Shown here piece after piece: positions 12,913 to 57,007 of a stretch of 64,000 bases of DNA. The notes beneath the pieces were generated by a model. The model was given only the letters and a program-made list of their open reading frames with translations. It was not told the DNA's origin and ran no database searches. The stretch's first letter is position 1, and every line of letters starts with the position of its first letter. The stretch is taken from NCBI GenBank assembly GCA_030247885.1, contig JAPDRO010000001.1, positions 620,001 to 684,000 on the forward strand. Direction: 5' to 3'. The position numbers and the translations under genes are program-made. The stretch is from Taxawa tesnikishii (nom. ined.). Taxonomy: Eukaryota > Ascomycota > Dothideomycetes > Dothideales.

Positions 12913-12916
12913 TATA

Positions 12917-14762: not shown

Positions 14763-14764
14763 TA

Positions 14765-20900: not shown

Positions 20901-20933
20901 TATAAGCTACTATTAAAGTAGAATAATTAGAAT

Positions 20934-21094: not shown

Positions 21095-21099
21095 TTATA

Positions 21100-24700: not shown

Positions 24701-27379
24701 TAGAACCTTAATAAGTACCTAATATAGCTCGAAACGTATGTTAATTATTTAGTAAGGTAATCTTATTTATAATATAAATACTACCTTTATACCTTACCTT
24801 TATTATAATATTTCCTTATTTGTCTTTTAAGTATATATTATCTTCGTTAAAGGTCCTATAGAGTCCGCTCTTATATATCTTTCTTCTAAATAATAAGTTA
24901 GCTCTAAGATTAAGAATATAGAGTATCTTTAATAAAAGGATTAAGTTCTTATTATTACGAAATCTTAATAAGTAAATTAGCGCGTTATAGTACTAATTTA
25001 CTCTCTAGTACTTAATTTACTAATCCTTATATCTTAGATTTACGTATCGAATTTATAATATATACTTCGATTTATAGTATTTATAGTTCCTAATATAACT
25101 ATTAATATCGCTTATAATAATCCTAATAGGATACTTAATATAATCCTAAGGTACGAGTCTTCTAGTTCTATTAAGATTCCTAGTAGAGTTACGAGGTATA
25201 AACTTAGTAAGTATATTATTACTATAGTTACTACTAAATCTTCCGTACTATACGTATAAATTAGTATAAGTATAAGAGATAATATAGTCGTATTATACGC
25301 TATTATAGAAATGTTTTATCTACTTAGGTTCCTTATTAAGCTTATTTAACTAGGCCCTTACTTATATATTTATTATATTAAAAGTCTTCTTAATTACGCT
25401 CTATAATATACTATTAAGTAGTTTATCCTCTAAAACTCTTTTATCTTAACTAACTATAAGTACTAATATCTCCTTATTTTCTTTACTATATATATTATAG
25501 TACTATATATATAGGCTACTTACGTTCCTAATTATACGAGTAACTTTAAGCTTAATATTCTTTTAGAGTTTACTCGAAGATATAACTTAGTAAAAGAATA
25601 CTTTTTCGCTAATCTTATTTATCTTTACCTTAATAGCCTTTAGTATAAATATAGTAAGGGATAATAACTTACTACTTATAAGTATAGATAGTATATATAG
25701 ACTAACACGCTAGCGCTTAGGGCTCCTATTACTAGCGTTTATAGTACTATTAACTTAAGTAGTAACTATAAGGGGTAATAACTAAGAGGATATAATAGTT
25801 ATAATAAGCGATAATAATTATCGAACGTTTCTATTAATACCTTCGTTACTACTACGAAGCTCTAAACTAAATATATTTATAATACGTTAAATTATATTAA
25901 AAAGGAATAAAAGTATAGTTTACCTTCTTTACTAAAGTTTAGTTTAATAAAGTTATTACTAAAAGTATAGCGCTATTAAGGAGCGACGTATTACTTAATT
26001 TTATTATCGACTATACTAAGCTATTTACGCGCCTAATATATTATAATAGTAAGGATATACTCGCGGCGAAGAGGCCTATTCTTACGTTACTATATATTCT
26101 AGTATCTATCGTATATACGCTATATAGTCTTACTACTTAGTATTTTCTACTTTAACTTATACGTTATATTAGTCTCTAATATACTAGTTATTTATAAGTT
26201 AATAATATACTCTATAGTTACTATTAAATAGAATAGTATATATAGTATTATATTCTAGAAGAATTTACTAGTATCCTCTCGACTTATAAGGCTATAATAT
26301 TTATAGTAGACCTTACTTATAATCTCGATAAATATTTTACTTAAGAAACGTTTCGCCTATTTAGTTATTTAGTACTTAGCGTAATAATATTAGTATAAGT
26401 ATTATAATAGTACCTTGTCGCTATCTTAGTAAAGGAAAGCTCTTACCTTTCCTTCCTTATATACTTATTACTTAAGGTAATTAGTATTATAAGACGTATA
26501 TTTACTAGTAGTATTTCGATTAATATAAGCGTTTATCTCTCTACGAGTAATAGTAAAGTAGTTATTATAAGCCGTTTTTATAAATTCGTATATTTAGATT
26601 TACGTTAATACTTCGAGGATAATTAAAAACATTATATACTTTAAAAACTACGGCCCTATATAAGGCGCGTAGTACTTTCGTCTCTAGGTTAACTTCTTAC
26701 TTAATAGACTAGACGTCTCTCTATATATCTTAAATAAGTTTATCCGTCTAATATTCGTTTTAAAATACTAAGTAAAATCTAGGGTATATTATCTCTTAAA
26801 AGAAAGTATAACCCTTAAAGTAAAAATAAATATAATACGAAGCTTAACTACTTTATAAACCTAAAATATAGTTAGAAGTAATAGTAACTTACTTCGATTA
26901 ATAATCTATTTAAGGTCTTTTCTTCCTTAATAAAAGAATACTAAAGGTTATATTATTTATATTCCTTAGCGCTCTTTTAGCTCTTAGTAGCCTCGCTTAA
27001 TACTACGAGATATTTAAACGAGACTTAAGTAATTAAGATTATAAATAAACGTAACTTCTATTTAAATTAAGTTATAATTAATACTATCTAATCCTTAGGA
27101 TAGCTTAGTAGTACTATAATATATAAGAGAGATTTAATAATATATACTAAAGATAGACGACGTATTAAACAAATAATTAGTAAAGTTTTACCGAGGTATT
27201 AGGATATAATATAATAAAACGAACGCGTTAATATAGTTAAGTTAAATAAAAAGAAGAAGAAAGTTTTATATATATAGACGCGTCTTAACGCTTCCTTTAG
27301 TAATTCGTAGTAGTTTAAGCTATTTACGTAACTCTTAGTAACTATATTAATAGTAGCCTTAGTAACTTCTTTAAGACTT

Positions 27380-27690
27380 ACTTTATTAGTAATCCTAGTA
27401 GTACTCCTAGTAGTAATCCTAGTAGTAATTTTAGTAGACTCTCTAGTAGCTTTTTAAGAATCGCTCTATTAGTAATCTTAGTAGTAATCCTAGTAGTACT
27501 CCTAGTAGACTCTCTAGTAACTTTCTAAGAATCGCCTTATTAGTACTCTTAGTAGTACTCCTAGTAGACTTTCTAGTAACTTTCTAAGAGTCGCCCTATT
27601 AGTAATCCTAGTAGTAATCCTAGTAGTACTCCTAGTAGACTCTTTAGTAGCTTTTTAAGAGTTACCTTATTAGTAATCTTAGTAGTTAGT
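27380..27690. repeat. P-left minisatellite, about 70-bp unit
   Basis: Four units built from AGTAATCCTAGTAGTACTCC followed by TAGTAGACTCTCTAGTA and a TTTTTAAGAATCGC-like end. The right P copy has fewer units at 53,360-53,560. On the minus strand it would encode a Pro/Gly/Leu-rich repeat. Confidence 0.8.
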
Positions 27691-29734
27691 ATTAATAAAG
27701 TAGTATTACCTTCTTAACTATTATTTAGTTATAGTACTTATTTATATAGTAAAACTCGTATAACTACCTTAGTTAAGTTATTATAACTATCGCCGTTAAA
27801 GTAAGTATTATAGTAAGTATAAGCTAATATACCTTAAAATAAGTAGTTTAGTAAACTATCTTATATAAAGAGACTATAAGTATTATACGTTCTATAGTTA
27901 TATTTATAAGTACTACTACCTTAAAGGTAGTAAATAATTATAATAAAAGGCGGTTTAGAACTTACTTTCTATTAGTATTATATATTAAGAGTATACTTAA
28001 AACTTACTATACGAAACTTTAAGCTCTTTCCTTATAGACATTAAATCGAGATAAGTCTCTCTTAATTACTTTAATCGTTAATTATAGTAGGCCTCTTATC
28101 TTCTTAATTTAATTTAATATAATTTAAGGCGCTATTTAACTCTTACTTTATAGTTAGTAATTCGACTAAGTATAATAGGAGTAAATCCTTTAAGGCGTAA
28201 TAATACTCTATTACTTTTACTCTAACTCTTATAATCTCGTATATAAAGCTAATAGCCTTAAACGAACTACTCTTAAGCGTAACTTATATAGACTCTATAG
28301 CTAGGATATAGTAGTATCTTTTCTTACTATTCCTACTCTTTATTTCTACGCTTTTAGTTTTAGTTTTATTTCTATCTTTATTACTAGCGCTACTAGTAGC
28401 TAGGCTAGTTATAGCGCGACTTATACTAAAAGTTAATTTAGCGTTACTATAAGTAACTTTACGCTCGTAGCTATGTTACTTAAAGTTTACGTTAATTTAG
28501 TATATTAACTTCTAAAACGACTCTTTTTCGTTATTTATTTATATAAATTATATAGTATCGCGGAATTAGTATACTATATCGTATTACTTTAAGACTATAG
28601 TAAAGATCTTAACCTCGACGTAATTTTACATTTTAATTATTATAATAAAACTCTTTTAGTAAGATATAACGCTACGAAGATTCTCTTAATAAAAGTATAA
28701 AAGTCGTAGTATTTTTAGTCGCTTAGTTATAAGTCTTATTTAATTATTTACGTAACTAATTAACTACTATTTTTACTAGTATTCTTTAACTTATAAGTTA
28801 AAGCTATAGTCGCATTAAAGGAGTATCTTTATAAGAGTATATATAAGTATTAAGTAGAGGCTTAGTTAATCTTCTTTAACTTATAAGGCCTTCGGGATTA
28901 GTTATATACGCCGTCTAGCTACTACTTATATATTCCTCTTATTTAAATAGTAAATATTCCTCGATATCTTATTCGTATTCTTTATACCTTTATAATCTAA
29001 TTATCTTATTAGCTTCGTAAAAGATAGTCCTTATAAGCTACGCTAACGTATATAGGAATTACTATTAGTACTTTACTTTAACCTTATTAATAGTATAAAC
29101 TTAACTCTTTATTTACCTACGTAAAAGGCCTCTCTTATTATGTTAATTAGTAGTCTAATATTAGTAATTTTTATAAAGTAATATTCTTCTCCTTTTCCTT
29201 TATTGTATTATATATATAGTTAAGTAATAAAGTAAGGTATAATTATAGTAAGCCTTATTAATCTTTCCTTTATATCTTATATACTCGTTCGTTTATATTT
29301 CTTCTTTACCTTTATACCTTAATAAATATCCTAGTAAGATTACTAGTAGGACTTACTTACTTCCTCGTTTATACTTTATAAACTTATTTCTTTACTTTCG
29401 TTTTATACTTCCTTACTAATAAAGTCTTCTATTTAGTTACTACCTTTCTTCCCTCTAGTTATATTTATATACTTATCCTTTACTACTACTTATCTTATTT
29501 ACTCTACTCCTTTATTACCTTAGTACTTAATAGTTACTACGTCTTATACTATATTTTCTTAAGTCTTTTAGATTTATATTAGTATAGAGACTCTATTTAT
29601 ATTATACGTTACGCGTTAGTTAATAACGCTATCTTTAGCTACTATTATAATATTACTTTCTTATCCTTTTATATTCGTATAAGTCGTCTCTATATATATA
29701 CTAATTACTTTATATTACTACTTTCTTATTACGC

Positions 29735-29835
29735 GTATTACTATCTTCTTATTACGCGCGTTATTACCTTTTATAATACGCGCGTTACTATCTTCTTATT
29801 ACGCGTATTACTACTTTTATAATACGCGCGACGTA
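29735..29835. repeat. P-left tandem repeat with TTATTACGCG units
   Basis: Alternating TCTTATTACGCGTATTACTA and TTTATAATACGCGCG units, CG-rich within AT-rich sequence. The inverted counterpart is at 51,215-51,330. Confidence 0.8.
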
Positions 29836-32800
29836 GACTTATACCTTACTACTAGTTCTTCTTTATTTTCTTATTTAGTACTAAATTTAGTCGCTATCTT
29901 ATATAGTTATTCTTATAGACTTTCTTTTACTAGTCCGAGGTATTTCTTCCTTTTACTTATATATATACTTATATTAGATTTTAACTTACTACGTAGAACG
30001 ATTATTTTACTTCCGCGCTATTACTATAAGTATACTTACTAATCTTGCCGCGTCCTTTACGCTACTACTTTCTAACTTAAATCCTTTAGTTAATTTTAAT
30101 AAGTATAATTCCTTTATATAAATAAAGAACTTACTTTAGTATTTTCTTATAACTAAGGGCCTAAGTAAGTTTAAAAGAAGTACTATAAAGGGATTTATAT
30201 ACGCTACTCTAAGTATAAATAAAGTTAACTAGTAAATTCTTAAGAATATAGTTATAAGTTATTTAAGGAATTTTAAATACCTTCGCGAGGGCTTCCTAAA
30301 GATACTCGTAGTTAAGCGCGAATACTTTAGTATTTAAAATAACCTTCTTAACGAAGTAAAAGGCTAAGCTATTTAGGAATTACTTTAAAAGAAGTCTTAA
30401 AAAAGCTACCTTAACTTTAGTATTACTTAGACTTATTTTATAAGAGTAAAAATAACGCGGACCTTATTAAGATAGTTATATAGTATCTTCTTTAAATATA
30501 CGTATAAGACGTAAAGTACAAGAATAAAAGTAATAGTAAGAGTAAATATAGTTAAGGTACTAGAAGTAAAAAAGAGTATATTTAACGTTATAGTTAAAAG
30601 TATATTTATTATTACGCTTAGAGCGCTTATAAAGCTAAATACGTAGTAGTATATATAGTACTATATTATTTACTAGTATAACTAACGATCTTAACGATAT
30701 AATTATTAGTAGCTTAACGTTAAAGAAGAATCTTAGCGATATACTTCTTATATTTATTTAAGTTAACTCTATTTACTTTAATATAAATATACTTATTAGT
30801 TTATTTATAACTATACCTTTACGCCTTAGTACTATCTATAATACTAATAAGAGTATATATAAGTTTAACCTTTTCCGTAAGTTAGCTTAGCGCTATTTTA
30901 GGAGCGTTTTACTACTAGTAGTTTAAGAGCTTATTACTTACGTTTAGTAATAAGTAACGCGTAAATTTTAGTAGTTTAACTTAATTATTAATCTTAAAGC
31001 GAACGTAAACGAAGCTAAATTAGCTAGCTTACTATATAATAGTATACTCCGAGAAGTATACTAAAATACCCTAGTCGATATTAAATAGCTCTAGATATTC
31101 GTTATATATAATCTTAACTATATTTAACTAATCCCTAAGTTTAAGCTCTATAAATAGAGAGTTATCTTAAATAAGTATACTTCGAAGAAGATAAATAAGT
31201 ATACTCTAGAGAATATAAAGGTAGCAAAGTTATTTATAAAGATTAAGTATTAACTAGTACTATTACTACCTCCTATAAAGCCGACGTATCGTTTTACTAT
31301 TAAGTTTATAATAATAAAGAATAATAGTTTAATATTAGAAAGTAACGATTTATTCGAGCTAGACGTTCCTTCTAGTTTAAAAAACTCTTATTAGCTAGAA
31401 AATAACTACGTTATTATAAAGAGAGTTACTCTTAAAAGAAAATAAAAAGAACTAAATAATAAGGTAAATAATAAGGCTCGTAAGAAGGCTATATACTTAA
31501 CTATAAAGTTTTTTAGTTAATTAGAAGTAATACTTATAAACCTAGCTTCTTAATAAAGTAAAAGTCGTCTATTACTCTCGATAGTAATTAGATAGTATAT
31601 AAGTAGCTATCGAGTAGTAATATTAAGGGCTTAGACTCTATTAATAGAAATAATAAAAGCGTAACTACTAATTTTTAAGCTCTAATATTAAGAGATTATA
31701 GTTTCGAATATAAGGAACTTACTCTTTAGTAAGTTACGTATTACTTCTTTAATAGTAATTCGAATAACTTTAACCTTATATATAGTATTTTTTATAAGGG
31801 CTAAAATAAGAAGAACTTCTTATTATCTTACTAGTTTTACTTTATAAGCTAGGCTTTAAAGGAAATACTTTCTAGTAGTCCTATAGTTTATAATACTTAC
31901 GATATAAGCCTTAGTAAGACTTATATTACTATCGCATAGCTCTAGGTATTTATATAAATAGTAGAGGAGTTAGGACGTCCTCTAGATATTAAAGTATACT
32001 CGAGCGACTACTTTAACTTTAAGATATTACTTACTTTATACGACTAGCTTAAAGACATTTAGCCGTAACTCGAAGTAGGCCTAAGCTTAATAGTTATTAT
32101 AAATAAACTATTCTTAATATAAATTAATAATATTCGCAAATTCGTCGGGGATAAGATTAAGATTATACTTACTAGTCTAAAGATAATAAAGAGAAACTAA
32201 GCCTTCTTTACTAAGGAGAAAACGTATTACTTTATAGATACTATTATTTAACTTAAAAGTATATACTATCTAAGCTAGAAGTAGTTAAAACTAAGGTATA
32301 TATAGTAGAGACTTAATATTCCTAAATTCTTTTTAGTTAGAAATTTACTTAAACGTAACCTTATTAAAGATAATAAGGAAGATAATAAAGGAAATATAAA
32401 TAGTATATAAAATGGCTCCTTACTATAGTTTAATAGCTATTTAAAATAGGTCGTACTTACGACCTTAAAGAAGCTTATAAGTAATATTTATCTTACTAAC
32501 TATTACTTTAAGGATAAGAAATATAACAAGTAATTTAGTAAAGTTACTTACAAAAATATAAGTAGTAAGAAGTAAAAGATAATAATACGCGTTTTAGTAT
32601 AAGAAAACCCTATTAATACTTCGTTTACGTACGTAATTATAAATAAGTTCTACGAATATATTAGCGTATTTAAGAGCGTTTAGTTAAATCTAGGCTTACT
32701 TTCGAGTACTTCGTAGTTTATATTTATTAGTAAAACGCTATTTAATAAGGTTACTTCGATTATAGGCTTATACTTTACTTCTAAAGCCTAGTACTTTAAC

Positions 32801-35800
32801 CTTAAAGATCCTAGAAAGTATATTATTAGAAACTAGACTTAGAGCTTTTCGTATTAGATAGCGAAAGTTACTAGTAATAAAACGAATCCTAGTAATAAGT
32901 AGTATAATCTAAATAAAATCGAGTTAAATACTTAAAAGTAAAGTTAACTTACTTATATTAAATAGCGCCTATTAAGAGCTAGCTTCTTATAACTTATAAC
33001 TACTACTAATATAGTCGTAAAAGAGTAGGGTAAGGTTAGCGCTACCTTACTTAGAAAGATAAGAGACGCTAGAGGCGAGGGCGACGATAAGGAAGACTAG
33101 ATAAATATTAGCGAACTTAATAAAGAAGGTCTTAAATAAGTTTAAATTCTTAGTAAAGTACTATAAGCTAGGACTATTAAGTATAACGTTAACTATCGAT
33201 AGCTTTTAAATATTAAGACTTACTTACGCGAAGAAGGTATAAGAGCTATACTAATACTATTATATTTAACGTTCGACTATATAGTTAGAATTTTAGAGAG
33301 AGAGATAAATTATCTAATACTTACTTAGTAGAAGGTCCTTATTAATATACTTAAGAAAGGTATAAGAAAGTCTAGTTTTAGTATATATAACTTTATAACT
33401 ACTTATTACTATTTTCGCGTCCTTATAGTCTTACTTTACCTTAAGAGACTTAAGGAAACTAATAAAGCTATACGTATAAAATTAGCGGAAAATATAACGA
33501 CTAAGATAGTACTAACGCTTTTAAAGGATCCTTAAAGTACTACTTTCTAGTAATATATAGTAGAGATTAACGCTATACTTATAATATAGAAGCTCTACGA
33601 GATTCTTAAGAAAGTACGAGCTTAAAATAACTTTACTAGTTAGTTTCTACGTAAGGTTATAATTAGTTCGTTTTTACCCTTTACTATTACTATAGTTAAG
33701 ATATAAATAATATAGTTACTCGAATAAAAAGCTAATAGTAACGCTCCTACCTAGGACTTCCTTAACTTTACTAATTTCTTAAAGGATATTAAGTTCGTTA
33801 ATTCCTAGACTAGTAATAAGCTCTAAGTAATTAATAACTTTAAGGGTACTAGTAACGAAGAGTATAAGGACGAGCCGAGAGCCTTATTAGCTATTATAAG
33901 CTAAATTAGTAGTAAAATAAATCTAGTTTCTAGTAACTATATTATTTTACTAGACTCTAACTAGACTATATAAAATATATCGTAGCTTATTTATTAAGTA
34001 AGATGCGCTAAGATAACGTAGAAGGTAAAGATTATAAAGTACTATTATATTATTTATAACTCTAAGTAAATCCGAATTTAAGGATAAATAAATAATCGTA
34101 TTATAAGCGCTAATAAGCTTTACGCTAAATTAGCTATATATAATATTAAGGAAGAAAAGCTTAAGAAGTATATAAATTAAGTAATTAATATTAGTAGCGA
34201 TAAGGAAGGTAATAATAATATATAAATAGAAGGTAATAATAGTAGAAGACTAGAGAATTATACTTATATAAATCTAAAAGAAAAAAATATATATAAATTA
34301 TTATTTTTAAAAGTAAATTATCTACGTAAATAAGATAGAAATTAATAAAGTACTTAAAACACTAAATCCTATTAGGATACTTAATAGAATCGAGCAAATA
34401 GTTTAATATATATAACGTATAAGGCAAAAACGCGAGAATATAAATACTTAGTAGGGCCGTATTATATTCGCGTCTTATAAAGCGTAACTACCTTAATTCT
34501 TTACTATTATACTATCATTTAAATAATAGTATTATAATACTAATATAAGTATACTCCTATATTAAAGACTAAGATTTAAGAGCGCCTCTAAGTTATTAAG
34601 GTATATTACCGCTTATATTACTACTTAAAAACTAAAGAATACCTTATAAGCTAAAGAGAGTATATATATAGCTTATAAAGATAGCGAATATACTAAAACT
34701 AATATATAATAGGCCGTATATTTCCTTTTATACTAGACGCCTTATATACTAATATAGCGTCTTAAGACTCTAATAAACTAAGTAGAGGCGATATTAACGC
34801 TATAGCGTACGAGGATACTATATATAACTTAATAAGCGACGGATTACCTTACGAAAGTATAAGAGAAAGTAATAGTAAATAAACGGAAGAAGACGAGAAG
34901 GTTAAAGAAGAGTCTAATAATAACGAAGAATATAACTTAACTAGGGACTTTATAAACTAGACGTAGATATTAGAGGCCCTCGACTTATAGCCTAGTAATA
35001 GTAGTAATAATAACGATAATATAACTCCTATTAATAAGTAAGAGAAAATAGCTAGTAAGGAAGCGGAAGACGTATATAGTACTACGTATAGTATAAGTTT
35101 TAACTTAATTTACTTAAGTAACGAAAGACTATTATTATTAGCGTTAAGTAAAGTATATAATAGTTTTAAAAAAAGATAGCTTTAAAAGTAGGCTCTTATA
35201 AGACGTAGTACGTATAGTATAGAGATTAAATATTAACGTATAGTTAATAGTATCTAGTTATAATATATAAAATATAATTAATTTAACGCTACTTAGAAAT
35301 TTCTAAGACTAGTTTAACTTTAACTTTACGCGATAAATATACTAAGAAAATATCTTTAAGAATAGGATTAACTACTTACTTAAGACCTCGAGACTAGAAC
35401 TCTTATTATAGCGCCTTAGCTAGAAGTTAGCTAACTAGCTATAAATAAAGATAAAAAATATACTTATAGTAGTAAATATTAGGTAGTAGTATATAAAGGA
35501 AATATAAGTACTAAGTAAGAGTAACTTAACTAAATATATAGTATATAGTTTATAGTATAAGGATCTAATATAAGTAGTTAAATTCTTCCTAGGTTATATT
35601 AGCTTTTAATATAACTTCTACTATAAGTTATATTACGTATAAATAGACGAGAACTATAACTATAAGAAGTATACTAATATACTATCTAGTAATTAGTAGT
35701 AAAACATATAGAAATAAGTTAACTTAATTATACTTAAAGTTACTATCGTACCTATTATTATCGTAAGTAATAAGACTAAGTTAACGCTTTAATTAAGAGA

Positions 35801-35819
35801 CTTATAAGCTTACGCTATA

Positions 35820-35902
35820 ACGTGTTTCACAAGTAAGTCGGCCACCCAAGTGAGTCGGCCACCTCGCGAAACTAGAACACCTGCGCAGCAACATTGCGCA
35901 AT
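35820..35902 (+). repeat. Left terminal inverted repeat of E3
   Basis: Inverse of 37,584-37,666 with about five mismatches. Starts ACGTGTTTCACAAGTAAGTC. The probable start codon of the transposase (35,901) overlaps its inner edge. Confidence 0.9.
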
Positions 35903-37544: not shown

Positions 37545-37583
37545 TTATATACTGTTCTATAGACTGCTGTAAAGTGTTGTAGT

Positions 37584-37666
37584 GTTGCGCAATGTTGCTG
37601 CGCAAGCGTTCTAGTTTCGTGAGGTGGCCGACTCACTTGGGTGGCCGACTCACTTGTGAAACACGT
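37584..37666 (-). repeat. Right terminal inverted repeat of E3
   Basis: Inverse of the left repeat at 35,820-35,902. Ends ACACGT followed by the duplicated TA. Confidence 0.9.
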
Positions 37667-37699
37667 TATATATAATAGTTAGTAACCTTAATATAACGA

Positions 37700-42237: not shown

Positions 42238-42717
42238 AGGATATTTAGTAGGATATCTAGTAGGATATCTAGTAGGATATCTAGTAAGATATCTAGTAAG
42301 ATATCTAGTAGGATATTTCGTAGGATATTTAGTAGGATATTTAGTAGGATATTTCGTAGGATATTACGTAAGATATCTAGTAGGATATCTAGTAGGATAT
42401 TTAATAGGATGTCTAGTAGGATATCTAGTAGGACGTCTAGTAGAATGTTTCGTAGGATATTACGTAAGATATCTAGTAGGATGTCTAGTAAGACGTCTAG
42501 TAGGACGTCTAGTAGGATATTTAGTAAGATATCTAGTAGGATATTTAGTAGGATATCTAGTAGGATATCTAGTAAGATATCTAGTAGGATATTTAGTAGG
42601 ATATTTAGTAGGACGTCTAGTAGGATGTTTCGTAGGATATTACGTAAGATATCTAGTAGGGTATTTAGTAAGATATCTAGTAGGACGTCTAGTAGAATAT
42701 CTAGTAAAATATCTTAT
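42238..42717. repeat. 12-bp tandem repeat in P-right, about 40 units
   Basis: Inverse of the 40,176-40,401 tract; unit GGATATCTAGTA with variants containing CGTCTAGTA and TTTCGTA. It produces a Ser/Arg/Ile-rich open frame on the plus strand (42,409-42,804) that is only a by-product of the repeat. Confidence 0.9.
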
Positions 42718-45219
42718 ATTTATCTTAATTACTTACGGCGCTTTTATTATTACGTATGTCCTCCTTTATTCTTAGTACTTCTTTTCCTACTCGCTATATT
42801 ATAATATTTCGGCTCTTTTAATCTCTTAAACCTTATTCTAGATATACCTAGCCTTTACGCCTTTATTTCCCCTTTTCTTCTCTCTTTTATTATTCGTACT
42901 ACTACTATTTCCCTACTACGTAAACTTCTTATTCTTTTAATCTTTAACTTAGTTATAGTACGGATTACTCTTTCTTCCTAATCCTTATTATAAATAAAGT
43001 TATACGTCGCTTAGTTAATAGTATTATTAATATATATATTCCTATTAGCTCGCTCGATATACTTATCTATTAGTACTATATAAATAGTATAGTAAACTTA
43101 AGTTAGAGAATATACTCTTCTTCCCTATAGCGTACCTCGACTTAGGTATATTACTAAAGGCTTAATTATAGTTATCTTATAATCGTCGTTCGCCTTACTA
43201 TTTACCTTCTTTACTATATAAATATCTACGTATATACTACTATAATATAAAGTCTTATTATTCTCCGTATTATTATCGTTAATATAGGCCTCCTTATAGC
43301 CTCGACGCGTAAATTCGATATCCTTTATAGTAATAATTAGTCGGAGGCGAACTAGAAGGCGTCTCTAAAACGTAAGTATAACTATATTATAGTCGTTTAA
43401 TATTAAGTTTATATATTCTTATACTTATACCTAGTCGTATTTAAGTTAGCTAGACTTTTGCTAATTATAGATATATTACGCGTAGTTTCGCTCTATTATA
43501 TCCTTATCGCTAGCGTTATTACTAGTCTCCTTTTAACATTTAATAAAGTAATAAAGTTAAATAAGATAGTTATTTACTTACGTATTATTAAACTTTATTT
43601 TATCTAAGTTATTAATTACCTCTTAAGACGCTAAGCTTATAGGCGCGATTATTATCTCTTTTAGTCTATTCTTACGTACGAAAATAGCTATTACCTAACG
43701 AAAATATTACTCCTCCTTAGTACCTAGGTACTCTACTACTTTACTTACTAGTTACTATAAATACTTCTTAGCTCGACGATATAGTCTAGGAAGGCTAAAT
43801 ATAGCCGCGATAGACTAGGCCTTAGAAGGTAATATAGGCTCTTTTACTTACTTTCTAGTCTCTATTATAGACTTTTATTTATAGTTATTAAGAAGGTCTT
43901 ATAGTATAAGTATATTTAGGCTATAATAATAATAGTTTATTAGCTAATCTTCCTACTTATCTTTTCTATTTATTTATCGAAAGTCCTCCTTTATATAAGT
44001 ATAATACTTATATTTAAGATAGCTTATATCCTAATTAAGCGCGTAGCTATATAAGCGAATTATTTAAACGTAGTACGTTAGAGTATACTACTTAAGGAAG
44101 TTAAAGTAACGTTCGTCTTCTTTTACTTTTAAGTTATAATATACTCGAAATACTTCCTTATATTAATTTATCTTATATAGCGTAAGTTCGAAGTAACGTA
44201 GCGTTTATTTATTATAACTATTATATATCGTAAGAGTAATAAAATTTACTATCGCGCGTATAAAATAAATTACTTCTTTCGCTTTCGTAGTACTAATTTC
44301 CTTAAGTAATAGTATAAATACTAGTATAATCTACTATAGGATACTTTTTTACTTAGCGCTAGTTTATTAAGAAATAGTAAATAGCTTCTTAAAAATACGA
44401 AGCGTTAAAAAGGGCGAAATCGCTACGAATTACTTATTAATAATGTTTTTAATAATAGCTTTAACTACTTTAGAATTAGTAGCCTTTTAGCGCTTCTTTT
44501 TACGTTTACCTTTTCTATTACTTTATATATTTAGGTACCCTTCTTATTCTTCGTATACTTTAATATAAATACTTAAGTCTAAGTAAGTACGTATATTATA
44601 ACGCCCTTTAAAAGCTAGTAAAGAATATTAACTATAAGTAATTAGTAGATCTCTATACCTAGTATATTAAATACAAAGTAGTTAATATCGTATAGTCTCT
44701 TATCTAAGTCTAGTTCTAGGTCTAAGTCTTTTAATATACTATTAGACTCTTACTTATCTTTTCCTTTAGCGTCTAGTAGTAATATATCCGAGGGGCTACT
44801 ATAACTTATATAAATACAAATAACTCGTCGCTAACGTTTAATACGATTTTAAGAATCTACTTTAGTTTACTAGGGTACTAAGAGTTTAAGATCCTCTTAT
44901 AAATTAGGATAGATCTTATATATTATATAGTATCGACTACTAAGTACGCTTATTAGCTTAACTTACTCTTTATAATTAGTTATAATTACGGCGATTATTA
45001 GGAAGTATTACCTTATCTAACTATTAGCGTAGGAGATTTTAGTTCCTTTTTATTTATACGTATTTGCGACTAATTTAAAGACTTCTTTTAAATACTAATA
45101 GAATATCCTACTCCTTAAGTTTATATTACCTTTATTAACTATTAGTAGTAATACTAATAATATCGACTTAGGCTATTTATTCGAATATTACGTCGTTATA
45201 TTAAGGTTACTAACTATTA

Positions 45220-45230
45220 TATATATAGCG
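45220..45230. other. Empty target site of E3 in P-right
   Basis: On the minus strand the sequence reads GCTTACGCTATATATATAAT. This equals the left flank of E3 (GCTTACGCTA) joined to TA and the right flank (TATATAAT), with one TA instead of two. It shows the state before E3 inserted in P-left. Confidence 0.9.
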
Positions 45231-48200
45231 TAAGCTTATAAGTCTCTTAATTAAAGCGTTAACTTAGTCTTATTACTTATAATAATAATAAGTATAATAG
45301 TAGCTCTAAGTATAGTTAAGTTAACTTATTTTTATATATCTTACTACTAATTACTAAACAGTATATTAATATACTTTCTATAGTTATAGTTCTCGTCTAT
45401 CTATATATAGTACGGCTTATAGTAAAGGTTATATTAAAAGCTAATATAGCCTAGGAAGAATTTAACTACTTATATTAGATCCTTATACTATAAACTATAC
45501 GCTATATATTTAGTTAAGTTACTTTTACTTAATACTTATATTTCCTTTATATACTACTACTTAATATTCGCTACTATAAGTATATTTTCTATCTTTATTT
45601 GTAGCTAGTTAGCCGACTTTTAGTTAAGGTACTATAGTAAGAGTTCTAGTCTTAGAGTCTTAAGTAAGCGATTAATACTATTCTTAGAGATATTTTCTTA
45701 GTATATTTATTACGTAAAGTTAAAGTCGAACTAGTCTTAGAAATTTCTAAGTAGCGTTAGATTAATTATGTCCTATATATTATAACTAGATACTATTAGT
45801 TATACGTTAATATTTAATCTTTATACTATATATACTATATCTTATAAGAGCCTACTTTTAGAGTCGTCTTTTCTTTAAAACTATTATATACCTTACTTAA
45901 CGCTAATAATAATAGTCTTTTGCTACCTAGGCGAATTAAGTTAAAACTTATACTATACGTAGTACTATATATATCTTTCGCTTCCTTACTAGCTATCTTT
46001 TCTCGCTTGTCGATAAGAGTTATATTATCGTTATTATTACTACTATTACTAGACTATAAGTCGAGGACCTCTAATATTTACGTTTAGTTTATAAAGTCCC
46101 TAGTTAAGTTATATTCTTCGTTATCGTTAGATTCTTCTTTAACTTTCTTATCTTCCTTCGTTTATTTACTATTACTTTCTCTTATACCTTTATAAAGTAA
46201 TTCGTTACTTATTAGGTCGTATATAATATCCTTATATACTATAGCGTTAATATTGCTTTTACTTAGTTTATTAGGGTCCTAAGACGCTATATTAGTATAT
46301 AAAGTATCTAGTACGGAAGGAGATATACGGCCTATTATATATTAGTTTTAATATATTTACTATCTTTACGAGTTATATATATACCCTCTCTAGCCTATAA
46401 GGCGTTCTTTAGTTTTTAAGTAGTAATATAAGCGGTAATATACCTTAATAACTTAGAGGCGCTCTTAAATCTTAGTCTTTAATATAGGGGTATACTTATA
46501 TTAATATTATAGTACTATTATTTAAATAATAGTATAATAGTAAAGAATTAAGGTAGTTACGCTTTATAAGATATAGATATAATACGGCCCTACTAAGTAT
46601 TTACGTTCTCGCGTTTTTACTTCGTACGTTACGTATACTAGGCTATCCGCTCGACTCTATTAAGTATCCTAATAGGATTTAGTATTTTAAGTACTTTACT
46701 AATTTCTATCTTATTTACGTAGATAGTCTACTTCTAGGAATAATAATTTACGTATATTCTTTTTCTTTTAGATTTATATAAGTATAATTCTCTAGTCTTT
46801 TATTACTACTACCTTTTATTTATATACTATTATCGCCTTCCTTATTACTACTAATATTAATTACTCGATCTATATACTTCTTAAGCTTCTCCTCCTTAAT
46901 ATTATATATAGTTAGTTTAGCGCGAAACTTATTAGTACTTATAATACGATCGTTTATTTATCCCTAAATTCGGATTTACTTAGAGTTATAAATAATATAA
47001 TAGTACTTTATAATCTTTACTTTCTACATTATCTTAGCGCGTCTTACTTAATAGATAAGCTATAATATATTCTATATAGTCTAGTTAAAGTCTAGTAGAA
47101 TAATATAGTTACTAAGAACTAGATTTATTCTACTATTAATTTAGCTTATAATAGCTAATAAGGCTCCCGACTTGTCCTTATACTCTTCGTTACTAGTACC
47201 CTTAAAGTTATTAATTACTTAGAACTTATTACTAGTCTAGAAATTAACGAACCTAATGTCCTTTAAGAAATTAGTAAAGTTAAGGAAGTCCTAGGTAAGA
47301 GCGTTACTATTAGCCTTTTATTTAAGTAACTATATTATTTATATTTTAACTATAGTAATAGTAAAGAGTAAGAATAAACTAATTATAACCTTATATAGGA
47401 ACTAGTTAGTAAAGTTATTTTAGGCTCGTACTTTCTTAAGGATCTTATAAAGCTTCTATATTATAGGCGTAGCGTTAATCTCTACTATATATTACTAGAG
47501 AGTAGTACTTTAAGGATCCTTTAAAAGCGTTAATATTATCTTAGCTATTATACCTTTCGCTAATTCCGTACGTATAGCTTTATTAGTTTCCTTAAGTTTC
47601 TTAAGGTAAAGTAAAACTATAAGGACGCGGAAATAGTAATAAGTAATTATAAAGTTATATATACTAAAACTAGACTTTCTTATACCTTTCTTAAGCGTAT
47701 TAGTAAGGACCTTTTACTAAGTAAGTATTAGATAATTTATCTCTCTCTCTAGAATTCTAACTATATAGTTAAACGTTAGATATAATAGTATTAGTATAGC
47801 TCTTATACCTTCTTTACGTAAGTAAGTCTTAATATTTAGAAGCTATTAATAGTTAACGTTATACTTAATAGTTTTAGCTTATAGTACTTTACTAAGAATT
47901 CGAACTTATTTAAGACTCTCTTTACTAAGTTTACTAATATTTATTTAGTCTTCCTCGTCGTTACCCTCGCCTCTAGCGTCTCTTATCTTTCTAAGTAAGG
48001 CGACGCTAACCTTACCTTACTCTTTTGCGACTATATTAGTAATAGTTATAAGCTATAGGAAGTTAACTCTTAATAGGCGCTATTTAATATAAGTAAGTTA
48101 ACTTTACTCTTAAGCGTTTAACTCGATTTTGTTTAGGTTATATTACTTACTACTAGGATTCGTTTTATTACTAGTAACTTTTGCTACTTAATACGAAAAG

Positions 48201-51200
48201 CTCTAAGTCTAGTTTCTAATAATATACTTTCTAAGATTTCTAAGGTTAAAGTACTAGGCTTTAAAAGTAAGGTATAAGCTTATAATTAAAGTAACCTTAT
48301 TAAATAGCGTTCTACTAATAAATATAAACTACGGAGTACTTAAAAGTAGGCCTAGATTTAATTAAACGCTCTTAAATACGCTAATATATTCGTAGAACTT
48401 ATTTATAATTACGCGCGCGAACGAAGTATTAATAAGGTTTTCTTATACTAAAACGCGTGTCGTTATCTTTTACTTCTTACTACTTATATTTTCGTAAGTA
48501 ACTTTACTAAACTACTTATTATATCTCTTATCCTTAAAGTAATAGTTAGTAAGATAAATGTTACTTATAAGCTTCTTTAAAGTCGTAAGTACGACCTATT
48601 TCGAATAGTTATTAAACTATAGTAAGGAGCTATTTTATATATTATTTATATTTCCTTTATTATTTTCCTTATTATCTTTAATAAGGTTACGTTTAAGTAA
48701 ATCTCTAACTAGAAAGAGTTTAGGAATATTAAGTCCCTATTACGTATACCTTAGTTTTAGCTACTTTTAGCTTAGATAGTATATACTTTTAAGTTAAATA
48801 ATAGTATCTATAAAGTAATACGTTTTCTCCTTAGTAAAGAAGGCTTAGTCCCTCTTTTTTATCTTTAAACTAGTAAGTATAATCTTAATCTTATCCCCGA
48901 CAAATTTGCGAATATTATCGATTTACGTTAAGAATAACTTATTTATAATAACTATTAAGCTTAGGCCTACTTCGAGTCGTAGCTAAATGTCTTTAAGCTA
49001 GTTATATAAGGCGAGTAGTATCTTAAGGTTAAAGTAGTTACTCGAGTATACTTTAGTATTTAGAGGACGTCTTAACTCCTCTATTATTTATATAAATACC
49101 TAGAGCTACGTAATAGTAATATAAGTCTTACTAAGGCTTATATTATAAGTATTATAAACTACGAGGTTACTAGAAAGTATTTCCTTTAAAGCCTAGTTTA
49201 TAAAGTAAAACTAGTAAGATAATAAGAAGTTCTTTTTATTTTAGCCCTTATAAAAAATACTAAATATAGAGTTAAGGTTATTCGAATCGCTATTAAAGAA
49301 GTAATATATAGCCTACTAAAGAGCGAATTCCTTATACTCGAAACTATAATCTCTTAATATTAAAGCCTAGAAATTAATAGTCGCGCTTTTATTATCTTTA
49401 TTAATAGAGTCTAAGTCCTCGATATTACTACTCGATAGCTACTTATATACTATCTAATTACTATCGAGAGTAATAAACGACTTTTACTTTACTAAGAAGC
49501 TAGGTTCGTAAGTATTACTTTTAATTAACTAAAAAACTTTATAATTAAGTATACGGCCTTCTTATAGGCCTTATTATTTGCCTTATTATTTAGCTCTTTT
49601 TATTTTCTTTTAAGAGTAACTCTCTCTATAGTAACGTAGTTATCTTCTAACTAATAGGAGTTTTTAAACTAGGAAAAACGTCTAACTTAAATAGATCGTT
49701 ACTTTCTAATATTAAACTATTATTTTCTATTATTATAAACTTAATAGTAAAACGACGCGTTAGCTTTATAGGAAGTAGCGATAATACTAGTCGATACTTA
49801 ATCTTTATAAATAGCTTCGTTACCTTTATATTTTCTAAAGTACGCTCGTTTATTTTCTTTAAAGTATACTTATTTAAGATAGCTTTCTATTTATAAAGCT
49901 CGGACTTAGGGATTAGTTAAATATAGTCGAGATTACGTATAATAAATATTTAGAGCTATTTAATATTAGCTAAGGTATTTTAGTATACCTCCTAGAATAT
50001 ACTATTATATAGTAAGCTAGCTAATTTAGCTTCGTTTACGTTTACTTTAAGATTAATAGTTAAGTTAAACTACTAAAATTTACGCGTTACTTATTACTAA
50101 ACGTAAGTAATAAGCTCTTAAACTACTAGTAGTAAAACGCTCCTAAAATAGCGCTAAGTTAACTTATAGAAAAGGTTAAGCTTATATACGCCCTTATTAG
50201 TATTATAAATAGTACTAAGGCGTAAAGGTATAACTATAGATAAACTAATAAGTATATTTATATTAGAGTAAATAGAGTTAACTTAAATAAATATAAGAAG
50301 TATATTACTAAGATCTTTCTTTAACGTTAAGCTACTAATAATTATATCGTTAAGATCGTCGGTTATACTAGTAGATAATATAGTACTATATATACTACTA
50401 CGTATTTAGCTCTATAAGCGCTCTAAGCGTAATAATAAACGTACTCTTAACTATAATATTAAACGTACTCTTTTTCTACTTTTAGTACTCTAGTTATATT
50501 TACCCTTACTATTACTTTTATTTTCGTACTTTACGTCTTATACGTATATTTAAAGAAGATACTATATAACTATCTTAATAAGGTCCGCGTTATTTTTACT
50601 CTTATAAAATAAGTCTAAGTAATACTAAAGTTAAAGCGACTTCTCTTAAGACTTCTTTTAAAGTAATTCCTAAATAGCTTAGCCTTTTACTTCGTTAAGA
50701 AGGTTATTTTAAATACTAAAGTATTCGCGCTTAACTACGAGTATCTTTAGGAAGCCCTCGCGAAGGTATTTAAAATTCCTTAAATAACTTATAACTATAT
50801 TCTTAAGAATTTACTAGTTAACTTTATTTATACTTAGAGTAGCGTATATAAATCCCTTTATAGTACTTCTTTTAAACTTACTTAGGCCCTTAGTTATAAG
50901 AAAATACTAAAGTAAGTTCTTTATTTATATAAAGGAATTATACTTATTAAAATTAACTAAAGGATTTAAGTTAGAAAGTAGTAGCGTAAAGGACGCGGCA
51001 AGATTAGTAAGTATACTTATAGTAATAGCGCGGAAGTAAAATAATCGTTCTACGTAGTAAGTTAAAATCTAATATAAGTATATATATAAGTAAAAGGAAG
51101 AAATACCTCGGACTAGTAAAAGAAAGTCTATAAGAATAACTATATAAGATAGCGACTAAATTTAGTACTAAATAAGAAAATAAAGAAGAACTAGTAGTAA

Positions 51201-51214
51201 GGTATAAGTCTACG

Positions 51215-51330
51215 TCGCGCGTATTATAAAAGTAGTAATACGCGTAATAAGAAGATAGTAACGCGCGTATTATAAAGGTAATAACGCGCGTAATAAGAAG
51301 ATAGTAATACGCGTAATAAGAAAGTAGTAA
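51215..51330. repeat. P-right tandem repeat with CGCGTAATAA units
   Basis: Inverse of the P-left tract at 29,735-29,835; alternating GTAATACGCGTAATAAGAAG and ACGCGCGTATTATAAA units. Confidence 0.8.
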
Positions 51331-53359
51331 TATAAAGTAATTAGTATATATATAGAGACGACTTATACGAATATAAAAGGATAAGAAAGTAATATTATAA
51401 TAGTAGCTAAAGATAGCGTTATTAACTAACGCGTAACGTATAATATAAATAGAGTCTCTATACTAATATAAATCTAAAAGACTTAAGAAAATATAGTATA
51501 AGACGTAGTAACTATTAAGTACTAAGGTAATAAAGGAGTAGAGTAAATAAGATAAGTAGTAGTAAAGGATAAGTATATAAATATAACTAGAGGGAAGAAA
51601 GGTAGTAACTAAATAGAAGACTTTATTAGTAAGGAAGTATAAAACGAAAGTAAAGAAATAAGTTTATAAAGTATAAACGAGGAAGTAAGTAAGTCCTACT
51701 AGTAATCTTACTAGGATATTTATTAAGGTATAAAGGTAAAGAAGAAATATAAACGAACGAGTATATAAGATATAAAGGAAAGATTAATAAGGCTTACTAT
51801 AATTATACCTTACTTTATTACTTAACTATATATATAATACAATAAAGGAAAAGGAGAAGAATATTACTTTATAAAAATTACTAATATTAGACTACTAATT
51901 AACATAATAAGAGAGGCCTTTTTACGTAGGTAAATAAAGAGTTAAGTTTATACTATTAATAAGGTTAAAGTAAAGTACTAATAGTAATTCCTATATACGT
52001 TAGCGTAGCTTATAAGGACTATCTTTTACGAAGCTAATAAGATAATTAGATTATAAAGGTATAAAGAATACGAATAAGATATCGAGGAATATTTACTATT
52101 TAAATAAGAGGAATATATAAGTAGTAGCTAGATAGTATATATAGCTAATCCTAAAGGCCTTATAAGTTAAAGAAAACTAACTAAGCCTCTACTTAATACC
52201 TACGTATACTCTTATAAAGATACTTCCCTAATACGACTATAACTTTAACTTATAAGTTAAAGAATACTAGTAAAAATAGTAGTCGATTAGTTACGTAAAT
52301 AATTAAATAGGACTTATAACTAAGTAACTAGAAATACTATAACTTTTATACTTTTATCGAGAAAATCTTCGTAGCGTTATATCTTACTAGAAAGAGTTTT
52401 ATAATAATCGAAATATAAAACTACGTCGAGGTTAAGATCTTTACTATAGTCTTAAAGTAATACGACATAGTATACCGATTCCGTAATACTATATAATTTA
52501 TATAAATAGATAATAGAAAAGAGTCGTTTTAGAAGTTAATATACTAAATTAACGTAAACTTTAAGTAACGTAGCTACGAGCGTAAAGTTACTTATAGTAA
52601 CGCTAAATTAACTTCTAGTATAAGTTACGCTATAACTAGCCTAGCTACTAGTAGCGCTAGTAATAAAGATAGAAATAAAACTAAAACTAAAAGCGTAGAA
52701 ATAAAGAGTAGAAATAGTAAGAAAAGATACTACTATATCCTAGCTATAGAGTCTATATAAGTTACGCTTAAAAGTAGTTCGTTTAAGACTATTAGCTTTA
52801 TATATAAGATTATAAGAGTTAGAGTAAAAGTAATAGAGTATTATTACGCCTTAAAGAATTTACTTCTATTATACTTAGTCGAATTATTAACTATAAAGTA
52901 AAAGTTAAATAGCGCCTCGAATTATATTAAATTAAATTAAGAAGATAAGAGGCTTACTATAATTAATAATTAAAGTAATTAAGAGAGACTTATCTCGATT
53001 TAATGTCTATAAGGAAAGAACTTAAAGTTTTATATAGTAAGTTTTAAGTATACTCTCGATATATAATACTAATAGAAAGTAAGTCTTAAACTACTTTCTA
53101 TTATAATTATTTACTACCTTTAAGGTAATAGTACCTACGAATATAACTATAGAGCGTATAGTACTTATAGTCTCTTTATATAAGATAGTCTACTAAACTA
53201 CTTATTTTAAGGTATATTAGCTTATACTTACTATAATACCTACTTTAACGGCGATAGTTATAGTAACTTAACTAAGGTAATTATACGAGTTTTACTATAT
53301 AGATAAGTACTATAACTAAATAATAGTCGAGAAGGTAATACTACTTTATTAATATTAAC

Positions 53360-53560
53360 TATTAGGATTACTAATAAGGTAACTCTTAGAAAGTTACTAG
53401 AGAGTCTACTAGGAGTACTACTAGGATTACTACTAGGATTACTAATAGGGTAATTCTTAAAAAGTCGCTAGAAAGTCTACTAGGATTACTACTAGGATTA
53501 CTACTAGGAGTACTACTAGGATTACTAATAAGGTAAGTCTTAGAGAAGTTACTAAGGCTA
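53360..53560. repeat. P-right minisatellite, about 70-bp unit
   Basis: Inverse of 27,380-27,690 but with about two to three units rather than four. Confidence 0.8.
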
Positions 53561-56126
53561 CTATTAGTATAGTTACTAAGAGTTACGTAAATAGCTCGGA
53601 CTACTATAAATCGCTAAAGGAAGCGTTAAGACGCGTCTATATATATAGAACTTTTTCCTTCTTTTTATTTAACTTAACTATATTAACGCGTTCGTTTTGT
53701 TATATTATATCTTAATACCTTAGTAGAACTTTACTAACTATTCGTTTAATACGTCGTTTATCTTTAGTATATATTATTAGATCTCTCTTATATATTATAG
53801 TACTACTAAGCTATCCTAAGAATTAGATAATATTAACTACGACTTAATTTAAATAGAAGCTACGTTTATTTATAATCTTAACTACTTAAGTCTTATTCGA
53901 GTATCTTATAGTATTAAGTAAGACTACTAAGAGCTAAAAGAGTACTAGGGAATATAAACGATATAACCTTTAGTACTCTTTTATTAAGGAAGAGAAGACC
54001 TTAAATAGATTATTAGTCGAGGTAAGCTACTATTACCTTTAGCTACATTTTAAGTCTATAAAGTAGTTAAGCTTTATATTATATTTATTTTTACTTTAGG
54101 AGTTATACCTTCTTTTTAAGAGATAATATACTCTAGATTTTACTTAATATTTTAAAACGAATACTAGATAAATAAACTTATTCGAGATATATAGAGAGAC
54201 GTCTAGTCTATTAAGTAAGAAGTTAACTTAGGGATAAAAGTACTACGCGCCCTATATAGGGCCGTAGTTTTTAGAGTATATAATATTCCTAGCTATCCTT
54301 AAAGTACTAACGTAAATCTAAATACGCGAATCTATAAGAATAGCTCGTAATAACTACTCTACTATTACTTATAAAGAGATAAACGCTTATATTAATCGAA
54401 ATACTACTAGTAGATATACGTCTTATAATACTAATTACCTTAAGTAATAAGTATATAAAGAAAGAAAGGTAAGAGCTTTCCTTTACTAAGATAGTAACGA
54501 GGTATCGTTATAATACTTATACTAACATTATTACGCCGAGTACTAAATAACTAAATAGGCGAAACGTTTCCTAAGTAAGATATTTATTAAGATTATAAGT
54601 AAGGTCTATTATAAACGTCGTAGCCTTATAAGCTAAGAGGATACTAGTAAATTCTTTTAGGATATAATACTATATATACTATTTTATTTAGTAGTAACTA
54701 TAGAGTATATTATTAACTTATAGATAACTAGTATACTAGAGACTAATATAACGTATAAACTAAAGTAGAAAATACTAAGTAGTAAGACTATATAGCGTAT
54801 ATATAACAAATACTAGGATATATAGTAACGTAAGAATAGGCCTCTTTACTATAAGTAAATCCTTACTATTATAATATATTAGGCGCGTAAATAGCTTAGC
54901 GTAGTTAATAATAAGATTAAGTAATACGTCGCTCCTTAATAGCGCTATACTTTTAGCGATAACCTTACTAGACTAGACTTTAGCGAAGAAGGTAAACTAT
55001 ACTTTTATTCCTTTTTAATATAATTTAACATATTATAAATATATTTAGTTTAGAGCTTCGCGGTAGTAACGAAGGTATTAATAGAAACGTTTAATAATCG
55101 TTATTACTTATTATAACTATTATATCTTCTTAGTTATTACCCCTTATAGTTATCGCTTAAGTTAGTAGTACTATAAACGCTAGTAATAAGAGCCCTAAGC
55201 GCTAGTATATTAGTCTATATATACTATCTATACTTATAAGTAGTAAGTTATTATTCCTTACTATATTTATATTAAAGGCTATTAAGGTAAAGATAAATAA
55301 AATTAGCGAAAAGGTATTCTTTTACTAAGTTACATCTTTAAGTAGACTCTAGAAGAATATTAAGCTTAAGATTACTCGCGTAATTAGGAATATAAGTAAC
55401 CTATATATATAGTACTATAATATATATAGCGGAGAAAATAAGGAGATATTAGTACTTATAGTTAGTTAAGATAAAAGGGTTTTAGAAGATAAACTACTTA
55501 ATAGCGCGTTATAAAGCGCGATTAAGAAGACTTTTAATATAATAAATATATAGGTAAGGGCCTAGCTAAATAAGCCTAGTAAGGAACCTAAGTAAATAAA
55601 GTATTTCCGTAATAGTATATAATACGACTACGTTATTTCTTATACTTATATTAATTTGTACGTATAGTACGAAAGATCTAGTAGTAACTATAGTAATAAT
55701 ATACTTACTAAGTTTATACCTCGTAACTCTACTAGGAATCTTAATAGAACTAAAGGACTTATACCTTAGGATTATATTAAGTATCTTATTAAGATTATTA
55801 TAGGCGATATTAATAGTTATACTAGGAACTATAAATACTATAAATCGAAGTATATATCGTAGATTTAATGCGTAAATCTAAGATATAAGGATTAGTAGAT
55901 TAGGTACTAGAGAGTAAATTAGTACTATAACGCGCTAATTTACCTATTAGGATTTCGTAACGTAACTCTTTTATATATAGGAATTATATTAGTCTTACTA
56001 CTTATAGTAGCCCTTTTAATATAAGTATTAATTATATTAGTCTTACTACTTATTATAGCCCTTTTAAGTATAAAATATACTATACTTAATTAAGTAGTAA
56101 GTTATTATAAACTTAAGCTTATAACT

Positions 56127-56286
56127 AGTTAAACTAAGTACTTAACTATAACTAAATATATAGTAAAACTAACTATAACTTATTAATTAATTAAGCTATT
56201 TATAATAGTAACTAAGAGATAAAGAAATTCCTTACTTAACTTAATAAGTTATATAACTATCTATTTAAACTAAGTAGCTATTATCT
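56127..56286 (-). repeat. Right LTR of the Copia-type fossil
   Basis: Direct repeat of 21,562-21,721. E1 resumes right after it. Confidence 0.85.
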
Positions 56287-56595
56287 TATAATAATAAGTA
56301 ATATATAAGATTTAATAACTTAAAAGAATAATAATAATAAGGAAGATATTAAATAACTTATAAAGAAAGTACGCGTATAAAGATATTATAAATATTATAA
56401 TAAGACTAGTTATAATATATATACTTATATTATAAAAATAATAAATTTAAACGATAGTAATATATTTAAATAATACTATAAACTAAAGTATCTTTTTATA
56501 TAGTATTATAATATAGAAGTAATAGTCTATAATAGTTACGATGTTAGTAAGGAGTAGCTACTTAGTAATAGTAGTTACTTAGTAATAAAATATAT
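56287..56595 (+). mobile_element. E1 pogo-like transposon, segment 3 of 3 (right end)
   Basis: Aligns with the reverse complement of E2 from about 13,230 to 12,917: the end of the transposase frame, then the terminal repeat AGTAATAAAA at 56,581-56,590. Closed by TA at 56,596-56,597, matching TA at 11,823-11,824. The ends of this single 1.85-kb element now lie 44.8 kb apart. Confidence 0.85.
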
Positions 56596-57007
56596 TAGTA
56601 TATTTATAAGTAAGATTTAAATTTAGCGAATTTCGAGACTTTTAACGAGGTACTATATATAGGCTTAAAATAATCGCATTAACTGTGCCAATTATCTAGT
56701 GTTAATTTTGTTTACTATGTAAACATCCGAAGCGTACAACAGCGGCAAAACTCCGAATCTTAATTTACTTTTGGATTTGCCGAGTAGAGTTCGGAAAGCT
56801 TTCCGGCCCCGCACTTTCACTTCCACTTTCACTTTTCCCCTGGAGATGTCCCCCGCATGCCAAGACCGCTGATATCCGCATCCGTGTATGACACGACGCG
56901 ACAGGAATCTCTTTCCGACAACCACTGTGTGCATACAGTATACCATCTTCCATAGTCACTGTGCCTCCAGCGCTTGTGTATCATCTCTCGTAGTCATCCA
57001 GTCTGCC

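Follow-up and report, generated by a model that had tools for sequence, protein, structure and literature searches.

In this study we examined a 64,000-nucleotide window of Taxawa tesnikishii (nom. ined.; contig JAPDRO010000001.1, C1:620001-684000, in a genome of 29.4 Mb in 34 contigs) that holds two large inverted copies, A and B, of a DNA transposon with the remains of a Plavaka-type transposase. Copy A lies in reverse orientation at 24953..40557 (minus strand) and copy B at 42082..55962 (plus strand), with a spacer at 40558..42081 between them. Their limits were set from the ends, the flanks and the alignment of the two copies with each other, and for A also from genome-wide ends. The first-pass annotation of this stretch had described an inverted pair of 13.8-kb elements with terminal inverted repeats (TIRs) and a 1.5-kb spacer. 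Both sizes are right: B measures 13,879 bp by the ends given there and 13,881 bp with one extra terminal base on each side. A reaches 15.6 kb because a 1.85-kb pogo-type element has inserted inside it. The inverted layout is evident from self-comparison of the window, where A and B are about 90-92% identical overall and align in blocks of 8.3, 2.7 and 2.6 kb (92.4, 89.7 and 90.4% identity) and a further 0.36 kb (89%).

B ends in (C)GTTACGAAATCC and GGATTTCGTAAC(G) and is flanked by the dinucleotide TA at 42080-42081 and 55963-55964. A is flanked by AT at 24951-24952 and 40558-40559, and its ends are altered to ATTACGAAATCT and ATTATAAAATCT, changes that are attributed to repeat-induced point mutation (RIP). 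Common ends had been proposed for the two copies from the window alone, where GTTACGAAATCC occurs without mismatch only at the two ends of B. With up to two mismatches it is found at 6 window sites against 5.5 expected by chance, and the 12-mer alone is therefore weak evidence. It is the genome-wide matches of the ends, described below, that bear the proposal out, with the ends of A in altered form.

The three tandem-repeat tracts that had been noted in both copies were recovered with Tandem Repeats Finder. One is a subterminal array of 12-bp units that starts about 155-165 bp inside one element end and has ~40 copies in B (42237..42714, plus strand) and ~19 in A (40177..40399, minus strand); by a rough pattern count its span varies from roughly 100 to 870 bp across 12 copies of the family. 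The second tract lies at 53356..53542 in B (plus strand) and 27383..27686 in A (minus strand), and the third, of 23/46-bp units in B, at 51216..51332 (plus strand) and 29713..29829 in A (minus strand). Coding remains are present on both strands, as had been observed, and homology in related copies places a transposase and a helicase on one strand and a third block on the other. The remains of the transposase gene occupy 42918..45763 in B (minus strand), based on hmmscan with PF18759, tblastn with a relative on contig C2 and limits mapped from a less mutated copy, Y. In A they occupy 35280..39974 (plus strand, tblastn and mapping), interrupted by the pogo insertion. A putative SNF2-type helicase region, positioned in A and B by nucleotide alignment only, is found at 47027..49312 in B (minus strand), where it corresponds to the helicase gene of Y, and by B-to-A alignment at 31733..34018 in A (plus strand). 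The third, divergent gene block, also positioned by alignment, is at 52314..52571 in B (plus strand), where it corresponds to a block of a gene with a 321-amino-acid open frame in a second family introduced below, and at 28473..28732 in A (minus strand).

Both copies lie in an AT-rich block that spans ~11.9-56.6 kb of the window, with a GC content of mostly ~25% inside and ~54% outside. The ratio (CpA+TpG)/(ApC+GpT) is mostly 0.00-0.06 within the block versus 1.08-1.28 well outside, and within the block it is raised only at the pogo element and at the block edges. The block bears the mark of RIP.

For the genome-wide investigation, the left 154 bp and the right 362 bp of B were run against the genome. 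The 20 left-end matches start at query base 1 (17 matches), base 2 (one) or base 7 (two), while, of the 19 near-full right-end matches, 16 reach the last base and 3 stop one short; three more right-end matches are partial. The search that the first-pass annotation had proposed thus returns one boundary to within a base, except for two left ends that begin 6 bases in. Pairing by orientation and distance joined 14 left with 14 right ends into 14 elements, leaving six left, five near-full right and three partial right ends outside. Besides A and B on C1, the pairs are C10:410839-424935, C10:486462-500506 (copy Y), C10:476555-504649 (outer), C22:33893-47846, C22:234540-248137, C29:724321-738197, C29:667964-681719, C6:754929-770843, C11:678356-692669, C3:6565-20774, C24:208870-223404 and C5:494422-521112. 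None of these 14 shows the same segment with different ends, which had been named as an observation that would refute the proposal. C7:789707 was rejected, being only a ~450-bp fragment. Twelve copies were read inside, the interiors of C5 and outer C10 being left out; they are 13.6-15.9 kb long and no transposase-only copy is found among them.

The dinucleotide outside the terminal C/G agrees between the two sides in 14/14 pairs (TA in 9, TT in 2, AA in 2 and AT in 1), where the chance agreement of two random dinucleotides from the block is 0.107 per copy. For four of the 14 (C22b, A, C5 and outer C10) the terminal C or G has to be read as changed by RIP to T or A. Since TT and AA are not palindromic, these 4/14 must be direct repeats, not an extension of the inverted ends; the TA and AT duplications can also be read as longer inverted ends. 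A candidate 8-bp duplication at A (TTCTTATT) was rejected since 2 bp suits all 14. On C10 a 14,045-bp copy is nested within another member of the family that spans 28,095 bp, and a 2-bp duplication flanks each of the two. When the flanks of 11 copies were compared, a shared flank was seen in the two C29 copies only, leaving 13 independent pairs. These inverted copies (C29:667964-682019 and 724021-738197) are identical over at least 834 bp across the left boundary, made up of 300 bp or more of the left flank and the first 534 bp of the element, and then differ by ~9.5%. This identity may stem from gene conversion, from a recent duplication in inverted orientation or from the assembly.

Across all 66 pairs of the 12 copies we counted 84,874 transitions and 2,217 transversions (ratio 38), and pairs involving B or Y show 0.07-0.42% transversions. 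With so few transversions, the copies were near-identical when they spread, and nearly all later differences are due to RIP. Within the window family the less mutated copy is Y, which has a GC content of ~38% and ends in GGATTTCGTGAC.

The transposase assignment is based on PF18759, with its curated cut-off of 26.3 bits. The domain is found in B at 44939-45517 on the minus strand with 46.9 bits, so that a TIR element with a Plavaka-type transposase is what B represents, as had been suggested. Scores rise to 90.3 bits in C10a, 101.5 in Y and 247.3 in the C2 relative, and the genome search gives 104 bits in a less mutated copy. That search gave 17 matches at 16 loci, and the control set rang once, in Thermotoga and below cut-off. 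With the C2 relative as tblastn query, B is matched at E 1.6e-68 and A at E 3.4e-46. The relative is an open frame of 917 amino acids, of which residues 31-913 align with one frame of Y at 33% identity (E 2e-125). In it the expected residues of the motif given in PMC12730594 (D, D, C(2)C, H(3)H, E) follow in order as D173, D272, C288/C291, H531/H535 and E555. The D and E are assigned by analogy with RAG1, and Y has changes at some of these positions. A search of the transposase against PDB sequences gave no match. B and its family carry a Plavaka-type transposase. The KDZ profile PF18758, which had also been proposed as a check, has no match, and its control was likewise silent. Two further loci, C10:471767-474410 and C18:21671-24312, are strongly RIPed pairs of Plavaka and helicase sequence and possibly form a third family.

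A second, little-mutated family with the same architecture is present in the genome. The 13-bp end CGTCACGAAATCC has 11 exact sites genome-wide, and the reversed-pattern control has none. Six of these sites form three paired elements, one belongs to Y and one marks the right end of another family-2 copy, on C1. The remaining three single sites (C1:333187, C1:2621166 and C12:1179143) were taken as chance, since their flanks look like genes and no second end pairs with them. The paired elements are C2:247317-261661 (14,345 bp, duplication TA/TA), C11:595884-610227 (14,344 bp, CT/CT) and C30:33730-48143 (14,414 bp, AC/GC), so the 2-bp duplication is exact in two of three and shows a RIP-type difference in the other. 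Both families end in CGTCACGAAATCC..GGATTTCGTGACG. The three elements are ~95-98% alike over the 7-7.7 kb compared, and their GC content of ~50% where read indicates that they are little RIPed. No stop interrupts the transposase domain in C2. The right end of family 2 is found at 12 places in the genome.

The frames upstream of the transposase in the C2 element score above cut-off with SNF2-rel_dom (31.9 bits) and with Helicase_C (30.6 bits); they overlap and shift, which may reflect introns or lesions. Pieces of this helicase match 6 of the 12 window-family copies (Y, C10a, C3, C22b, C6a and C29b) at the corresponding place by tblastn, with E from 7e-4 to 6e-9, and shuffled queries gave 0/200. 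Genome-wide, the Helicase_C piece has 24 matches. Twelve of the 16 Plavaka loci have one on the same strand and the upstream side, in one case across a nested insertion. The 12 other matches comprise four in window-family copies that we read (C22a, C29a, C29b and C6a), one in a C8 fragment of this family, five at 4-10 kb from right ends of family 2, one unplaced match at C1:95617, and C8:505227, which lies in an open frame of 954 amino acids. The latter (C8:505227-505562) resembles a host SNF2 gene and is possibly kin of the helicase of the element. Against PDB, the N-terminal part of the helicase matches mainly through its own repeat tract (best E 2.7e-4), with the SNF2 protein fft3 matched weakly (E 0.42).

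Towards the other end lies the divergent gene region of family 2. Its open frames measure 321, 162 and 229 amino acids, and the last of them holds DUF6532 (25.5 bits, cut-off 24). DUF6532 is listed together with Plavaka and KDZ among extra domains in two Ganoderma genomes (PMC8955403). This listing is consistent with DUF6532 being a transposon protein, without proving it. About half of the 14 kb has no assigned gene. In six-frame Pfam scans of the RIPed copies the transposase alone rises above cut-off; PT repeat, PsbN and FUSC_2 appeared below it and were taken as chance.

We consider A and B to be, very probably, two separate insertions, killed by RIP, of one large autonomous cut-and-paste family of the Plavaka group (EnSpm-like, within the CMCT clade). 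This reading draws on the ends, the target duplications, the copy number, the transposase, the RIP mark and the helicase linked to the transposase in related copies and in family 2. Several observations weigh against it. Six left ends and five near-full right ends stayed unpaired, and the C11 copy aligns over only ~7.2 kb of the element. At an E of 1e-3, tblastn with the helicase gives no match in A and B, and four of the 16 Plavaka loci (C22:65136, C29:739078, C11:680923 and C3:17714) have no helicase match. Pfam shows neither the helicase nor the third gene in six frames of C10a, six frames of Y (305-13594) or two of the six frames of B. The third-gene block is detected by tblastn in 2 of the 12 window-family copies (Y, E 2.7e-6; C10a, E 1.3e-4), and DUF6532 occurs in the genome only in the three family-2 copies, one of them below cut-off. 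RIP-type stops also interrupt the transposase domain of two family-2 elements, with 4 in C11 and 10 in C30. The ends match neither Plavaka subgroup as described in PMC12730594.

The first-pass annotation had suggested that the coding-like DNA beyond the transposase is cargo or marks a composite element. In this scenario a smaller Plavaka captured host genes, the helicase and the third gene, and became the 14-kb form. The transposase gene does make up only ~2.8 kb of the 14 kb, and the host-like SNF2 frame on C8 matches the helicase weakly. However, the gene order of transposase and helicase and their common strand are shared by the two families, whose transposases are only 33% identical, a figure lowered by RIP, so any capture would be old and retained. 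The absence of transposase-only forms among the 12 copies also speaks against it. We found no second transposase domain inside the element save the later pogo in A, nor anything that points to host cargo or a composite pair. The helicase, linked to the transposase in both families, and the divergent gene region account for much of the extra DNA, which thus looks like a constant part of the element, and capture from the host seems to us an unlikely origin of it.

Another possibility is that the pair is a single unit, either a palindromic composite moved by its outer ends or one inverted duplication. The opposite orientation at a distance of 1.5 kb would suit this, as would the inverted C29 copies with their shared left boundary. 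The large imperfect palindrome that had been described is real as a layout, but A is flanked by AT/AT and B by TA/TA, the two have no common flanks in the 300 bp compared, and the spacer is part of an abundant repeat. The pair therefore looks like two insertions, and a single palindromic unit is very improbable. Large elements of the Starship, KDZ/Zisupton and CACTA types exist in fungi, and the captain of Starships is defined by DUF3435, a tyrosine recombinase domain. Six frames each of C10a and Y and ten frames of family 2 were scanned for DUF3435 without a hit, where RIP could mask a broken copy. Zisupton makes an 8-bp duplication as opposed to the 2 bp seen here, and the ends do not start with CACTA. 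Plavaka transposases are related to EnSpm according to the classification in PMC12730594, which lends such readings some plausibility; all the same, membership in any of these other large groups is hardly to be expected.

Plavaka is grouped with EnSpm, Mirage, Chapaev, Transib and ESTA in the CMCT clade (PMC12730594), and complete Plavaka families are described there from mushrooms. In the descriptions given for Agaricomycotina, PlavakaA has a 2-bp duplication and TGT..ACA ends and PlavakaB a 2-3-bp duplication and CATCA..TGATG ends (Kojima 2025, PMC12730594). Our elements share with both subgroups the PF18759 transposase and, in the C2 relative, the order of D, D, C(2)C, H(3)H and E, and with PlavakaA the 2-bp duplication. 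They differ in their CGTCACGAAATCC ends, in the helicase and DUF6532 region and in their ascomycete host. The Plavaka repeats of Marasmius oreades are defined by the same Pfam domain and have TIRs in the accounts of PMC8290104 and PMC9674265; that host is a basidiomycete, and the likeness lies in the domain and the presence of TIRs. Because of the mismatch in end sequence, we file the element as Plavaka-group and not under subgroup A or B.

The subterminal repeats of En/Spm (CACTA) elements resemble the 12-bp array near one end of our element. The transposase clade is related as well, but our element has no CACTA ends, a 2-bp instead of a 3-bp duplication, and its 12-bp units stand in a tandem array. 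Helicase genes are also known from Inton, Enton, Academ, AcademH and KolobokH, whose transposases probably belong to other groups. Inton and Enton, like our element, encode an SNF2-type helicase of their own, and Academ a RecQ helicase (PMC3627910, compared by description only); AcademH and KolobokH are covered in PMC10799480. The principle of a DNA transposon with a helicase is thus not new, and Enton might be related to our element. For the TET/JBP dioxygenases that some Plavaka elements bear (PF12851), the genome has no match at E 1, where RIP could mask a broken copy and the control set responded in E. coli alone, below cut-off. In a search that left most subscription papers, Repbase entries and supplements outside its scope, we came across neither a Plavaka with a helicase nor a complete Plavaka from an ascomycete, and such elements may be described elsewhere. 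A 'plavaka transposase' does appear among secretome proteins of necrotrophic plant pathogens in PMC10156984, and KDZ and Plavaka elements are termed understudied in PMC8290104.

Several other repeats surround or interrupt the pair. The spacer belongs to another abundant RIPed repeat: at least 35 places, including the window, match at least 99% of the query 40580-42080. As the two flanks of B are alike over 67-84 bp, B appears to have been placed in a tandem-repeat part of this repeat. A mosaic of more RIPed repeats flanks the pair on both sides (11810-24900 and 56100-56620), and in the window self-comparison its pieces recur in both orientations at ~78-91% identity. A DUF3295 gene lies nearby and, like the CpA-type RIP, fits an ascomycete host. 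The pogo/Fot1-type element in A (35820..37666, plus strand; 1,847 bp) has a 578-amino-acid open frame with DDE_1 and HTH_Tnp_Tc5 domains and a TA target duplication, and it was inserted at a TA within the transposase gene of A. It is not part of the large element. It is un-RIPed and occurs at a rounded 100% identity at 12 places including the window; further copies stand at 94-99%, and numerous RIPed relatives at 71-81%. It thus multiplied recently without RIP, and it probably entered A after the RIP of A.

From the arrangement of genes and ends we infer how such an element might have moved. A DDE transposase encoded near one end would recognise the 13-bp inverted ends, and perhaps bind the 12-bp array too. 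It would excise the element and insert it with a 2-bp stagger, leaving the 2-bp target duplication. The SNF2-type helicase beside the transposase could be accessory machinery of the element itself, remodelling chromatin at the donor or target; it may aid transposition or the opening of silenced chromatin. The divergently read third gene towards the other end might supply an accessory protein. The family multiplied in a short burst, as the copies differ by very few transversions, and RIP then changed nearly every CpA to TpA, leading to 25% GC and broken frames. A scan of B by stop density was dropped, being too noisy.

The two families could represent a separate ascomycete Plavaka-like lineage with CGTCACG ends, 2-bp duplications, a conserved gene set and its own SNF2 remodeller, which would give access to transposase and target in silenced, RIP-prone DNA. 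We put this forward tentatively, as a proposal with nearly as much in its favour as against it. Complete ends, duplications, a sister family and a linked helicase are now defined in one RIP-active fungus. RIPed and nearly un-RIPed forms of one architecture coexist in this genome, which allows one to ask which genes such an element keeps where genome defence is strong and whether the SNF2 helicases that transposons carry act against silencing.

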